A stretch of 64,000 nucleotides of DNA, taken from positions 1 through 64,000 of the forward strand of contig JAFLTI010000007.1 of the NCBI GenBank assembly GCA_022510485.1. Reading direction: 5' to 3'. The DNA is from Lentimicrobiaceae bacterium. Its GTDB lineage: Bacteria; Bacteroidota; Bacteroidia; Bacteroidales; P3. Every line of letters begins with the position of its first letter. The first letter of the stretch is position 1. The notes beneath the pieces were generated by a model. That model did no database searches, was not told the origin of the DNA, and was given only the letters and a program-made list of their open reading frames with translations. The position numbers and the translations under genes are program-made. This document shows positions 3 through 11,762 of the stretch, piece after piece.

Positions 3-107
3 GTTGATATGACTGACGCGGAAAGCAAGGCTTTTGTGGCTGCAAACATCAAGAGGATGGTATATCGACGGAAATTCGCTTTCAGTTTAGTGTCTTTGGG
101 ATATTGA
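3..107 (+). CDS. possible C-terminal end of an upstream gene (partial)
   Basis: A reading frame is open from the window edge to a TGA at 105-107, about 34 residues, ending in SLVSLGY. The visible part (DAESKAFVAANIKRMVYRR) is helical and basic at its end. Its last 13 codons are written inside the 47-bp repeat copy at 68-114, so the repeat may have been inserted at, or may form, the end of this gene. No family is recognised. It may also be a chance frame; the call depends on sequence upstream of the window. Confidence 0.25.
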   Translation, partial: VDMTDAESKAFVAANIKRMVYRRKFAFSLVSLGY

Positions 108-114
108 TAACGGC
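68..114 (+). repeat. 47-bp CRISPR-like repeat, copy 1 (degenerate 5' end)
   Basis: Matches the repeat best seen at 637-683 and 1065-1111 (starts GTTGTGATTCGC, ends TTGATAACAGC). The first six bases here have drifted, and the internal box reads TGTCTTTG instead of TATCTTTG. It shares the variant GTCTTTGGGATATTG with copy 3. The small gene at 142-474 starts 27 bp after it. Confidence 0.75.
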
Positions 115-117
115 TAT

Positions 118-133
118 GTTGCTAAAATAAAGA
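118..133 (+). repeat. 16-nt leader shared with 2569-2584
   Basis: GTTGCTAAAATAAAGA occurs here and, identically, at 2569-2584, each time directly in front of the start codon of a small hypothetical gene (142 and 2589). The AT-rich AAAATAAAG part could act as the weak ribosome-binding region usual in Bacteroidetes. An identical 16-mer suggests a shared origin of the two 5' ends. Confidence 0.55.
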
Positions 134-141
134 TGGGAATC

Positions 142-474
142 ATGGCTAAAATGGAAGATTTATTAAAACACTGTCGGTATTACAATGGTGCTGAACATTG
201 CCCAGATGACGTACACCCTATGTTTTGGGCTATTGAGAGGCATTGGGTAAAAGCGAAAACAACAAGTCCGGAACCAAAGGATTCCGATTGTTGCATAATG
301 AAGGACTATATTGATGCAGGGCTTGAAAATTTTGAAAAAGATGATGATGTCTCAATAGTGATAAAGGTATTGATTTATGAATGGTACCAAAAAATTGCAG
401 GATTTAACCGTGAAAATGCAATAAAAGGTTTTCCGAAGTTCTATGCTTATTACAAAAATGGAGGAACTAAATAG
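142..474 (+). CDS. small hypothetical protein, CRYY paralogue family
   Basis: Encodes 110 residues. The N-terminus LLKHCRYYNG, followed about 15 residues later by FWAIE, is shared with the next gene at 703-969 (LIKQCRYYKG ... FWQEE), so the two are paralogues. The protein is acidic, has no signal peptide or membrane segment, and its second half looks helical, ending in FPKFYAYYKNGG. I chose the ATG at 142; an in-frame ATG at 133 lies inside the shared 16-nt leader and is less likely. The gene follows repeat copy 1 (68-114), whose box could drive it. Function is unknown. Tandem arrays of small, diverging soluble paralogues are often immunity-protein arrays, but nothing here proves that. Confidence 0.65.
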   Translation: MAKMEDLLKHCRYYNGAEHCPDDVHPMFWAIERHWVKAKTTSPEPKDSDCCIMKDYIDAGLENFEKDDDVSIVIKVLIYEWYQKIAGFNRENAIKGFPKFYAYYKNGGTK

Positions 475-636
475 GCTATACCTTGATTACCGTTATTCCG
501 CCATCAATATGTATTGCTTTTTCGGTTGAGATTTTAATAATACGATAACGATTCCTGAGCGAGCATAAAACTTCACACTCTCAGCAAAATGAGACATATG
601 GCTTATACTTGTTCAGTTTTGCCCTTTTTCGCATAT

Positions 637-683
637 GTTGTGATTCGCTTTCATTTTAGTATCTTTGAAATATTGATAACAGC
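637..683 (+). repeat. 47-bp CRISPR-like repeat, copy 2, with embedded promoter
   Basis: A full 47-bp copy, nearly identical to 1065-1111. It contains GTTG at 637-640, 19 bases, then TATCTTTG at 660-667. That is the Bacteroidetes promoter layout (TTTG-like element, about 19 bp, TAnnTTTG), so transcription should start near 674 and run into the small gene at 703. No second repeat lies 30 bp before or after it, so this copy is solitary. Length, start and end resemble repeats of Bacteroidetes type II-C CRISPR arrays (from general knowledge of those repeats). Confidence 0.8.
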
Positions 684-702
684 TTTAAACAGCGCTTCAA
701 CT

Positions 703-969
703 ATGAATAGAAACGAACTGATAAAGCAGTGCCGGTATTATAAGGGTGAGGATAAATCTCCTTTTTCAGACTATTGGAATACGGTTTTTTGGCAAGAGGA
801 AGCCTTTTTTATTCACAAATTTGAAACTGGTTTTTTTGGAAATCTGAATATAGAAGATGCACTAAAAAAGCATATGGAACTTTTCTTTGAGCACCTTGCC
901 GATATGCACGAGACCATGGATGATGGTAAACTGTATAGGGATAAATACCTAAATATCAAATCTGCTTGA
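703..969 (+). CDS. small hypothetical protein, CRYY paralogue family
   Basis: Encodes 88 residues. LIKQCRYYKG and FWQEE are shared with 142-474, but this protein is shorter and the C-terminal half differs. An in-frame ATG at 589 would translate straight through the repeat at 637-683, so I start at 703, 19 bp after the repeat. The repeat's TATCTTTG box would give a short 5' leader of about 30 nt. Its stop at 967-969 is 19 bp before the next repeat copy (989). Cytosolic, function unknown; possibly an immunity-type or regulatory small protein. Confidence 0.6.
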   Translation: MNRNELIKQCRYYKGEDKSPFSDYWNTVFWQEEAFFIHKFETGFFGNLNIEDALKKHMELFFEHLADMHETMDDGKLYRDKYLNIKSA

Positions 970-988
970 TAACCTCAATATCAACATA

Positions 989-1111
989 GTTGTGATTCGC
1001 TTTATTTTAGTGTCTTTGGGATATTGATAACAGCAAGCGTTTCAAACTGGTTCTATAAGTTTTCGTTGTGATTCGCTTTCATTTTAGTATCTTTGAAATA
1101 TTGATAACAGC
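989..1111 (+). CRISPR. minimal repeat-spacer-repeat unit (copies 3 and 4)
   Basis: Copy 3 is 989-1034 (46 bp, one C lost from the CTTTC run, box TGTCTTTG) and copy 4 is 1065-1111 (47 bp, TATCTTTG at 1088-1095 with GTTG 19 bp upstream). They are separated by exactly 30 bp (1035-1064), the spacer length expected of type II-C arrays with 47-bp repeats. No cas gene lies in the window and there is only one spacer, so this is a remnant or an array end. Caution: short similarity between the sequence after copy 2 (AGCGCTTCAACT) and in the putative spacer (AGCGTTTCAAACT) could mean the 30 bp is leftover gene-leader DNA and not an acquired spacer. Confidence 0.55.
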
Positions 1112-9340: not shown

Positions 9341-11762
9341 GGCTGAAGGTGGTACCTTTGGGCGAAGAACTTTCTATGTTGAGTTCTCCGTTCATGCTTT
9401 CGGCAAGACGGCGGCAGATAGCCAGCCCTAAGCCCGCTCCCTTGCTGCGTGTGGTAAAGCGGGGTTCAAAAATACGTTCCTGATTTTCGGTGCTGATACC
9501 CGGGCCGTTGTCGCTCACATAAATAGTGCAGACACCTTCGGATTCTTTTAATCCCACCCGTATTTCGGGAGCGGGGGTCTGCGCTTCGGTAAGGGCTTGC
9601 ACGGCGTTACGTATCAGATTGATTAAAATCTGTTCCAAAAATCCGGCATCCGCATAGAGGCGCAACGCTTCGTTTTGCGGCGGTATTTCCGCGTGGAAAG
9701 CAATCTTTTCGTCTGCCTTGAACAGTTCGAGCGTTTCGAGGATAAGCCGTGAGGGTGAAATCTCTTCCATGTGGGCTTTCTGCCATTGGGAAAATTGGGA
9801 GAAGGTGCCGGCTATATGCGCCAATCGGTCTATCTGCGCGGTAAGCATTTCGGCAAAACGGTCTAAGCGTTCCTTAAAATCGGCGTGTTCACCGTCGTTA
9901 TACGCTCTTTGCAGCAGTTGAACCTGCAAGCGCATAGGCGTAAGCGGATTTTTTATTTCGTGAGCCACCTGCCGCGCCATTTCGCTCCATGCGTTCTCGC
10001 GTTCCGATTCCGCCAACTTGCGCAGGCTCGTTTCCAATTCGTCTACCAAAAGGTTGTATTGCTTTACCAACACGCCTATTTCGTCTTTGCGCTTCCATTG
10101 CAGACGGTTGTTCTTCTGCCCCGGCTTAATCTGCGCCACCATGCGGGTAACCAATTGCAGCGGCTTGGTAATGCGCCTTGCAAGGAGAGAAGAAAACACA
10201 AAGGTGATAAGGCTCAGCAGCACCATAATGTTGAGGTAGGTGCATAAAAAGCGACCCATTTCGGCACGCTGGCGTTCCACTTGCAGATAGCGGGGTATGC
10301 AGAGCAAACCGAGCACTTCGCCGCCTGCATTGCGAAAAGAGGCAAAAGCAAGCAGTGCGCCCTGTCTTTGTAAGATAAGCAGATGGTTTTGTTCTTCGGC
10401 TATTTGCTGGAGGATTCCGGCATCCAAATGTTCCGGCAAAAGGCTTTCGGGGCGTGGGCTGGAAACCAATTCTCCCTCTGTGGAGTACAGATAAATGTCT
10501 TGACGGAACAGGTTGCCGAGTTGCTCCGTTTCGGTATGGAGTTTTTGAACCATACTGTCGTTTCGCGGTGTAAGCAGGCAATCTCCGGGCAGGTTCATAT
10601 AGCGGTTTTCCATTTCGGCAAGAATGGAAAGGCTTTGGCTACGCAACAGGTTTGAGTTTTCGTTAAGGTTAAGCTGGCGTATAAAGAACAATGCCACCGC
10701 TCCGAACACAAACACTACCGAGAGCAGCAACACAAAGGTTCCGCTGCGCAGTTGGCGGGCGTAGGTGCCGGCGATTCCAAAAAAGTTTTTGTCGAACAAG
10801 GCTAAAACGAGCGTGCCGAGAATACCGAACAGGATAAAAAACAGCGAGAAGTCAGGCAGTATATCGGTGGGATCCGCTTGGGGCGTGCTCAATACCAAAA
10901 GGCGGTCTTGCGGCAGAGGATAAAACAGGTGGTCGTAACCTTGCCTATTAAAGAACCGTAACGAATCGGGAGCATTTCTTTTTAGGCGGAAAGGGTAGAG
11001 AAAACTGCCGTTGTAACTCCATAATTCGTTTTCGGAATAAAAGGCGTAGGAATAGGCGGGGGGCAGCCGCAAGCCTTCGTCGCCCGGAACATCGGCAAAT
11101 TTCTTGCGCCCCAGTTCCACGTTCATCATCAGGGTGTCTTCGCCCGAAAAAACAGGTATTTGAAACAGATAGGCGTAATATTCTATGCCGTAGTCTATGC
11201 CGTACAGCCCATCTATTCCGGTGGCAGTTCCCGCCTGCACTTTCCGCTCAAAAAAACTCCGGCAGTTTTCGGTCATGCTGTCGTCTAACAGCAGCAGTTC
11301 TTCCGGTTCACAAAAGGTAAAGAAGCAGCGGTAGTGGCTAAAAGAGGGAGAAAAAACGCGCTCTTGCCAACAGGCAGCCAAGTTGTCTTTGTTGTAAAGG
11401 CTGTCGATGATAAAAAAATCCGGGAGCGGATTTTGGTCTTGTTGCAGGTCTTGCAATATAAGAGAAAACCTTTCTTCGGCAGGCAGGTCGCGTTCCAAAG
11501 CGATTTCGCTTGCCCATTGCAGGCGGTCTTGTTGCTCTTGCCTAACACCGTTCAGATAGACCGCTATGGCGCAAAGCAGGCTGTAAACGCTTAAAAACAA
11601 GGTTCTGAACACTACTTTTGCAGAAACCTTGAAAATCTTTTCGCACAAAAGCAGCAGCCCGAAACCGAGCAGGAAAAATCCGCCCACACATACCGCGCTC
11701 CAAAGGTTAAAATTCAGGAGTTCTTTTGCCTGTAGCGGTATGTGCGGCAGAAAAGGAGGCAT
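9318..11762 (-). CDS. membrane sensor histidine kinase (NtrY-like architecture)
   Basis: Encodes 814 residues. N-terminal membrane segments (about 18-38 and 48-70), a large periplasmic region, two more segments in the middle and one near 530 leading into a HAMP linker (RRITKPLQLVTRMVAQIKPG). The dimerisation box is RQVAHEIKNPLTPMR with the phospho-acceptor His at about 601. The ATPase domain shows LEQILINLIRNAVQAL (N box), VSDNGPGIS (G1) and GAGLGLAICRRLAES (G2). No response regulator lies next to it, so its partner is elsewhere. It is 9 bp downstream of the epimerase gene and may be co-transcribed. The signal is unknown. Confidence 0.88.
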   Translation of the reverse strand: MPPFLPHIPLQAKELLNFNLWSAVCVGGFFLLGFGLLLLCEKIFKVSAKVVFRTLFLSVYSLLCAIAVYLNGVRQEQQDRLQWASEIALERDLPAEERFSLILQDLQQDQNPLPDFFIIDSLYNKDNLAACWQERVFSPSFSHYRCFFTFCEPEELLLLDDSMTENCRSFFERKVQAGTATGIDGLYGIDYGIEYYAYLFQIPVFSGEDTLMMNVELGRKKFADVPGDEGLRLPPAYSYAFYSENELWSYNGSFLYPFRLKRNAPDSLRFFNRQGYDHLFYPLPQDRLLVLSTPQADPTDILPDFSLFFILFGILGTLVLALFDKNFFGIAGTYARQLRSGTFVLLLSVVFVFGAVALFFIRQLNLNENSNLLRSQSLSILAEMENRYMNLPGDCLLTPRNDSMVQKLHTETEQLGNLFRQDIYLYSTEGELVSSPRPESLLPEHLDAGILQQIAEEQNHLLILQRQGALLAFASFRNAGGEVLGLLCIPRYLQVERQRAEMGRFLCTYLNIMVLLSLITFVFSSLLARRITKPLQLVTRMVAQIKPGQKNNRLQWKRKDEIGVLVKQYNLLVDELETSLRKLAESERENAWSEMARQVAHEIKNPLTPMRLQVQLLQRAYNDGEHADFKERLDRFAEMLTAQIDRLAHIAGTFSQFSQWQKAHMEEISPSRLILETLELFKADEKIAFHAEIPPQNEALRLYADAGFLEQILINLIRNAVQALTEAQTPAPEIRVGLKESEGVCTIYVSDNGPGISTENQERIFEPRFTTRSKGAGLGLAICRRLAESMNGELNIESSSPKGTTFSLKMKSVR

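Follow-up and report, generated by a model that had tools for sequence, protein, structure and literature searches.

The DNA analysed here (the window, 64,000 nucleotides) comes from a Bacteroidales genome of 1.96 Mb, where it occupies contig C64 from base 1 on; near that edge it carries four copies of a repeat on the forward strand, at positions 68-114, 637-683, 989-1034 and 1065-1111, all of which the original prediction had located correctly. Copies 2 and 4 are identical 47-mers, and both matched the Rfam family CRISPR-DR49 (RF01362) at 54.2 bits, where gathering is 41. The degenerate copy 3, at 46 nt one base short, reached 28.6 bits, under gathering, and the degenerate copy 1 was absent from the Rfam match list. 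When a 39-nt core was searched with at most 3 mismatches, 2 matches were found in the window and 0 in 100 shuffles. The full Bacteroidetes promoter that had been proposed for copies 2 and 4 was recovered as well, since GTTG-N19-TATCTTTG is exact in both, with TTG at 638-640 and TATCTTTG at 660-667 in copy 2, and TATCTTTG at 1088-1095 in copy 4. Copies 1 and 3 have TGTCTTTG in place of TATCTTTG, and copy 1, which lacks TAnnTTTG, is also missing the -33 TTG. The gaps between successive repeats are 522, 305 and 30 bp, and only the last (1035-1064, forward strand) is a spacer of normal length, as had been noted earlier; with spacing this far from regular and uniform, the array is an irregular remnant. 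The 30-bp spacer had no exact match in the viral contigs. Copy 4 together with a downstream hairpin (1088-1188) weakly resembled the Rfam DUF2693 RNA, at 20.1 bits, far under its gathering value of 81.3.

Protein genes, two of them paralogous, had been expected between the repeats, and this expectation held. The first gap (insert 1, 115-636) has 522 bp where a spacer would be expected, and contains ORF1 (142-474, forward, 110 aa, alternative start at 133), a member of phrog_19606 (3.1e-15). The second (insert 2, 684-988) has 305 bp in place of a spacer, and ORF2 (703-969, forward, 88 aa, phrog_19606 at 5.7e-7), a distant paralogue of ORF1, is its sole content, so that each of the two inserts holds one complete phrog_19606 gene in repeat direction. 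We read ORF1 and ORF2 as phage cargo standing in place of 30-bp spacers. In the phage genomes L101, L103 and Versailles, phrog_19606 adjoins an ADP-ribosylglycohydrolase gene and faces a minor-head/ADP-ribosyltransferase gene. The 160 bp behind ORF1 (477-636, reverse) are probably the decayed C-terminal end of such a minor-head/ADP-ribosyltransferase gene, cut at repeat 2; the evidence is weak to modest, a score of 8.6 bits against maxima of 6.2 for 400 window pieces and 3.6 for 200 shuffles, together with a position and strand that match phages L101, L103 and L105. A tblastn search with ORF1 found one phage relative, Versailles, and the same search with ORF2 found no relatives among named phages and plasmids. 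L104, one of four viral loci, looks like a chance match, and such a gene is absent from its ORF list. The AlphaFold2 model of ORF1 is all-helical, with five helices and a pLDDT of 79; it resembled one siphophage protein (E 1e-4), and nothing in the PDB fell below E 0.001. The start codons of ORF2 and ORF3 lie 19 and 58 bp past the preceding repeat, in agreement with the distance of about 20-60 bp given before. ORF3 (1170-2012, forward, 280 aa) encodes a hexapeptide-type phage accessory protein (phrog_5070/7964) with a distant YdcK-like match below cut-off, and an antitoxin-like gene downstream matched phrog_13227. To the left, the 3' end of an open frame (3-107, forward) enters at the contig edge and has its stop inside repeat copy 1; it had no PHROG match, leaving a phage gene end unsupported.

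The resemblance to type II-C repeats was also upheld, both by the CRISPR-DR49 match and by genome G005 of the same genus, in which a near-identical repeat belongs to a cas9-cas1-cas2 locus. This locus, spread over two contigs, comprises a 1,422-aa cas9, cas1, cas2 and 20 near-identical repeats with spacers of 29-31 bp; its genes were named from sequence and gene order, and Cas9 by serving as the search query. Next to the outermost repeat of the G005 array (L038, 804-1055) there is a phage-type gene, phrog_10608, without its own start codon. The repeat pattern was present in 2 of 190 family genomes, those being G005 and the window's own, and a search of the whole assembly placed it at the window locus only. 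Absence of the repeats elsewhere had been named as grounds for abandoning the original prediction; such absence holds within the genome itself and does not hold among relatives. Recombination of gene cassettes within this genome was rejected, the repeat being confined to one locus. The cas gene search of the genome covered Cas9, which was absent from the assembly (96.5% complete) both by TIGR01865 and by the G005 Cas9 query. Given this absence and the G005 locus with its near-identical repeat, we take the window array to be an orphan, worn type II-C remnant at the contig edge, and since the window begins at base 1 of its contig, the array may extend further to the left. The array sits on the upstream side of an acyl-CoA dehydrogenase gene, a region that differed in 8/8 same-genus genomes compared. 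Because other CRISPR arrays occupy the same site in two same-genus genomes, G007 and G010, the site is a variable spot tending to house defence loci. In G007 (L071) about 36 repeat copies are found there next to a 2,609-aa ORF; G010 (L072) has about 45, accompanied by cas-like genes and a cas2-like ORF. A defence-system scan by PADLOC gave no match.

A broad II-C repeat pattern was present in 49 of the 393 genomes of the order, and 74 II-C-type loci were read (2 from G005, 24 from a contig scan and 48 fetched by place), a set that covers part of the 49 genomes and includes some arrays twice (e.g., L038/L078 and L086/L192). Seven of these loci had a stretch of 500 bp or more inserted between repeats: 505 bp in G143, 655 bp in G505, 1,096 bp in L090, 1,116 bp in G370, 1,162 bp in G495, 2,282 bp in G114 and 3,632 bp in G131. 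Six of the seven occupied gap 1 or 2 from the 5' end, the insert of G114 being in the seventh gap. The relative ranks summed to 1.47 over the 7 arrays, with 0 of 200,000 random draws as low; the G370 array, which has one gap only, is uninformative for this test. II-C arrays are described as being transcribed toward the variable end (PMC8092290), and the repeat at the 5' end was degenerate in 24 of 46 arrays in which this end was visible; for both reasons the 5' end is the old, leader-distal end of the array. Family scans gave no support for a phage origin of the G143, G505 and G370 inserts, and no phage match of weight for that of G114. The G143 insert encodes a Phd/YefM antitoxin (Pfam 1e-11). 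The G505 insert (L184, 6869-7523), between the terminal repeat and the array, holds a ParE-like toxin gene (0.0075, under the Pfam cut-off) and a small antitoxin-like gene upstream, both sense. The first and last bases of the inserts share no common signature, and their first and last 30 bp do not match, on which ground Campbell-type integration at a spacer was rejected. Self-targeting was rejected too, since array spacers had no close match to the inserts of their own array (best 8-13 mismatches).

In three genomes (G131, G474 and that of L090) a phage gene is cut exactly at the edge of a repeat. The 3,632-bp insert of G131 contains a head gene that has no frame before the repeat; its residue 1 falls at the repeat and aligns with residue 174, 176 or 137 in three phage head proteins of full length, to which its identity is, in that order, ∼40, 41 and 30%. 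Three genes are represented in the L090 insert, one by its end, a neck gene in full and a third by its first 32 aa; a faecal phage carries the neck gene and the third gene in the same order, the latter being 150 aa long there. For gene A of L090, the named phages gave no match. The neck gene of G474 reaches the repeat over all of its visible length, whereas the 210-aa gene of phage p00 continues. The insert of G495 ends in what is presumably the start of a tape-measure-like gene, read by eye from the letters, and in the viral contig L210 a capsid-like gene ends at a repeat; neither had a named-phage match, and both were left out of the count of genes cut at repeats. A cassette system moving genes between repeats had been suggested for this locus, and it is disfavoured by the single locus in its own genome and by several inserts elsewhere that are mid-gene phage fragments.

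The phrog_19606 family gave 20 matches in 16 of the 393 order genomes, and in five of the 16 the gene lies between II-C repeats at the 5' end of the array, in sense orientation. These are the window genome, where it occurs twice, G131, G495, G396 and G474, the last two having been found via the gene and not via the repeat pattern. G495 has two phrog_19606 genes, of which the upstream one matched weakly (0.0038), the G474 copy carries a stop codon, and in G396 the gene is the sole content of a 362-bp insert. G396 also has an extra 276-aa ORF between cas1 and cas9 (L231, reverse complement, 10400-11230). For the other 11 genomes, no array was found in 12 stretches reaching ∼8 kb to each side where the contig allows; in one of these, L244, phrog_19606 itself was unmatched by tblastn. 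With 17 places outside the window, 52 arrays and a slot of 2 kb per array, which is our own generous assumption, 0.0013 coincidences would be expected by chance against 4 seen. In a tree of 21 phrog_19606 proteins, array copies stood beside non-array ones (G131 with G407; G495a and G474 with G368), which suggests that the family may have been recruited into arrays separately, while the well-supported branches still allow one origin. Its repeated presence in arrays suggests that the gene is kept for use. The one-gene inserts of 305 and 362 bp seem too gene-shaped for chance fragments, a hint in favour of selection or retention, or of another route.

The original prediction held that repeats had become gene promoters, and among the alternatives to the reading we prefer, this exaptation, in which selection would keep a repeat before small genes for its Bacteroidetes promoter, fares best, unlikely as it is. 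Copies 2 and 4 place a full promoter ahead of ORF2 and ORF3, repeat promoters of Flavobacterium II-C arrays are believed to drive transcription in the direction of the variable end (PMC8092290, PMC10309648), and the first gene after the 5' repeat was sense in 10 of 12 inserts, the exceptions being L090 and insert 2 of G474. By our own arithmetic this bias has a one-sided p of ∼0.02, a modest sign that expression matters. Against exaptation, TTG-N18-21-TAnnTTTG is part of the consensus in 66 of 66 arrays of three or more repeats and is found in 1,111 of 1,152 repeats, a census that is partly circular in that the repeat search pattern includes both boxes; the consensus repeat of G474, which was found via the gene, also has TTG and TATCTTTG. 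The putative promoter is thus a general property of the repeat type, and its origin is not tied to these genes; promoters in repeats had been proposed earlier for Flavobacterium II-C arrays (PMC8092290, PMC10309648). It was moreover lost in 23 of 24 degenerate 5' terminal repeats, being kept in one, and among the 12 repeats that immediately precede an insert just 4 retain it (window copy 2, G131, one in G474, and G114, where it was inferred from zero mismatches to the consensus). In the window, copies 1 and 3 carry a broken version, and ORF1 therefore has no promoter in its repeat.

An ordinary insertion, in which a phage or other element entered a 30-bp spacer and then decayed until a gene was left between two repeats, is improbable. 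Old spacers are under little constraint, Sulfolobus offers a documented insertion sequence within a spacer (PMC4390879), and repeats of G400, G435 and G396 contain short palindromic elements, but such an insertion should leave spacer halves, whereas in L090, G131 and G474 phage frames extend to the final bases adjoining the repeat, and the scanned insert ORFs matched no transposase family. The palindromic elements (L185 in G400, L176 in G435, L231 in G396) lie inside several repeats and recur along the array, and in G400 and G435 they are directly 3' of the TATC of the -7 box. Slightly less probable again is that repeats borne by phages, alone or as mini-arrays, recombined with host repeats and drew phage DNA into the arrays. 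The viral contigs L207, L208 and L209 each carry one complete II-C-type repeat alone, and solitary repeat units are known in phages (PMC10651486); yet the DR49 patterns had 0 matches in the viral contigs, the broad pattern occurred in 4 contigs out of 2.9 million, the viral loci L101-L104 have no repeat-like site, and genes cut midway at repeats do not fit repeats located between phage genes. The repeat of L207 (2306-2351) fills the gap from one gene's stop to the next gene's start codon, and the solitary repeats of the three contigs are candidate RNA anti-CRISPRs for II-C. It is very improbable that repeats led the assembler to join unrelated phage and array contigs, for although the window repeats are at a contig edge and several of the genomes are metagenome bins, the inserts of G131, G474, G396, G114 and G505 are internal to contigs of 63-263 kb, a false join requires a phage piece that already touches repeats on both sides, and the same gene family recurs in five genomes.

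We lean toward the reading that the locus is the old end of a type II-C array at which phage pieces, captured as oversize spacers, were retained, possibly with transcription from the repeat promoters. What the data show directly is the repeat identity, the phage gene family, the recurrence, the exact cuts in several other genomes and the clustering at the old end, while the route of capture, the protection by decay and the transcription are inferred. On the evidence of the assembly, the array would have lost its remainder and its cas genes. The pieces would have entered when Cas1-Cas2 joined an untrimmed phage fragment and copied the repeat as for a normal spacer, although to our knowledge oversize integration in vivo has not been established for II-C. 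For the related type II-A, it has been described that Cas1-Cas2 without Cas9 integrates unprocessed lengths, and that the supercomplex alone trims to 30 bp (PMC8034620). At the old end the pieces may then have persisted with a decayed terminal repeat at their flank, which would block loss by recombination. Long inserts between identical repeats can be lost via recombination, and such a block would account for the position at the old end as well as for the degenerate flank. That pieces go in at the young end and survive until they stand at the old end is conjecture. The repeat promoters would be a legacy of the II-C array, and ORF2 could be transcribed from copy 2 and ORF3 from copy 4. A bolder proposal, which we offer as a tentative possibility, is that the old end of Bacteroidales II-C arrays serves as a cargo slot, where kilobase-sized giant spacers store phage genes in addition to phage addresses, and where useful genes, phrog_19606 recurrently among them, are kept and transcribed by the repeat promoters.

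In the standard account, a CRISPR array is a ledger of short spacers under a strict length ruler. Repeat-bounded phage pieces of up to 3.6 kb with mid-gene cuts suggest that the ruler fails visibly often, or that there is another route for long DNA. The promoters in II-C repeats could allow such pieces to be expressed, and expressed inserts could give hosts ready-to-use phage genes. The recurrence of phrog_19606 at the array slot makes it a concrete candidate gene for testing.

Several known systems resemble parts of this locus. CreTA, a CRISPR-regulated toxin-antitoxin, likewise has its gene beside degenerate repeats, but the window has no guide-like spacer match nearby, the best in its first 20 kb having 12 mismatches out of 30. 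With Bacteroidetes II-C arrays (CRISPR-DR49) it shares the sequence and length of the repeat, the 30-bp spacer, the repeat promoter and the degenerate 5' terminal repeat; it differs in having phage genes, in inserts of 522 and 305 bp, in two of its three gaps and in that no Cas9 was found. The II-C locus of Flavobacterium columnare also includes small accessory genes, the toxin-antitoxin pair ParDE, although these are described between cas9 and the array and not between repeats (PMC8092290). Solitary repeat units of phages, the RNA anti-CRISPRs, are similar in placing a repeat next to small phage genes (PMC10651486), whereas the window has a host array of four repeats and a spacer, with repeats on both sides of the genes. 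In locus F of Sulfolobus solfataricus, an 899-bp fragment of a conjugative plasmid lies between two repeats (PMC4390879), a long foreign fragment bounded by repeats as here. We found no report in the open-access literature of recurrent long inserts in II-C arrays, or of such genes in arrays. Within that literature, then, a single long repeat-bounded foreign fragment was known from one archaeal case, as described for Sulfolobus (PMC4390879), and what is new is that it recurs among Bacteroidales, at the old end of II-C arrays and together with one gene family.
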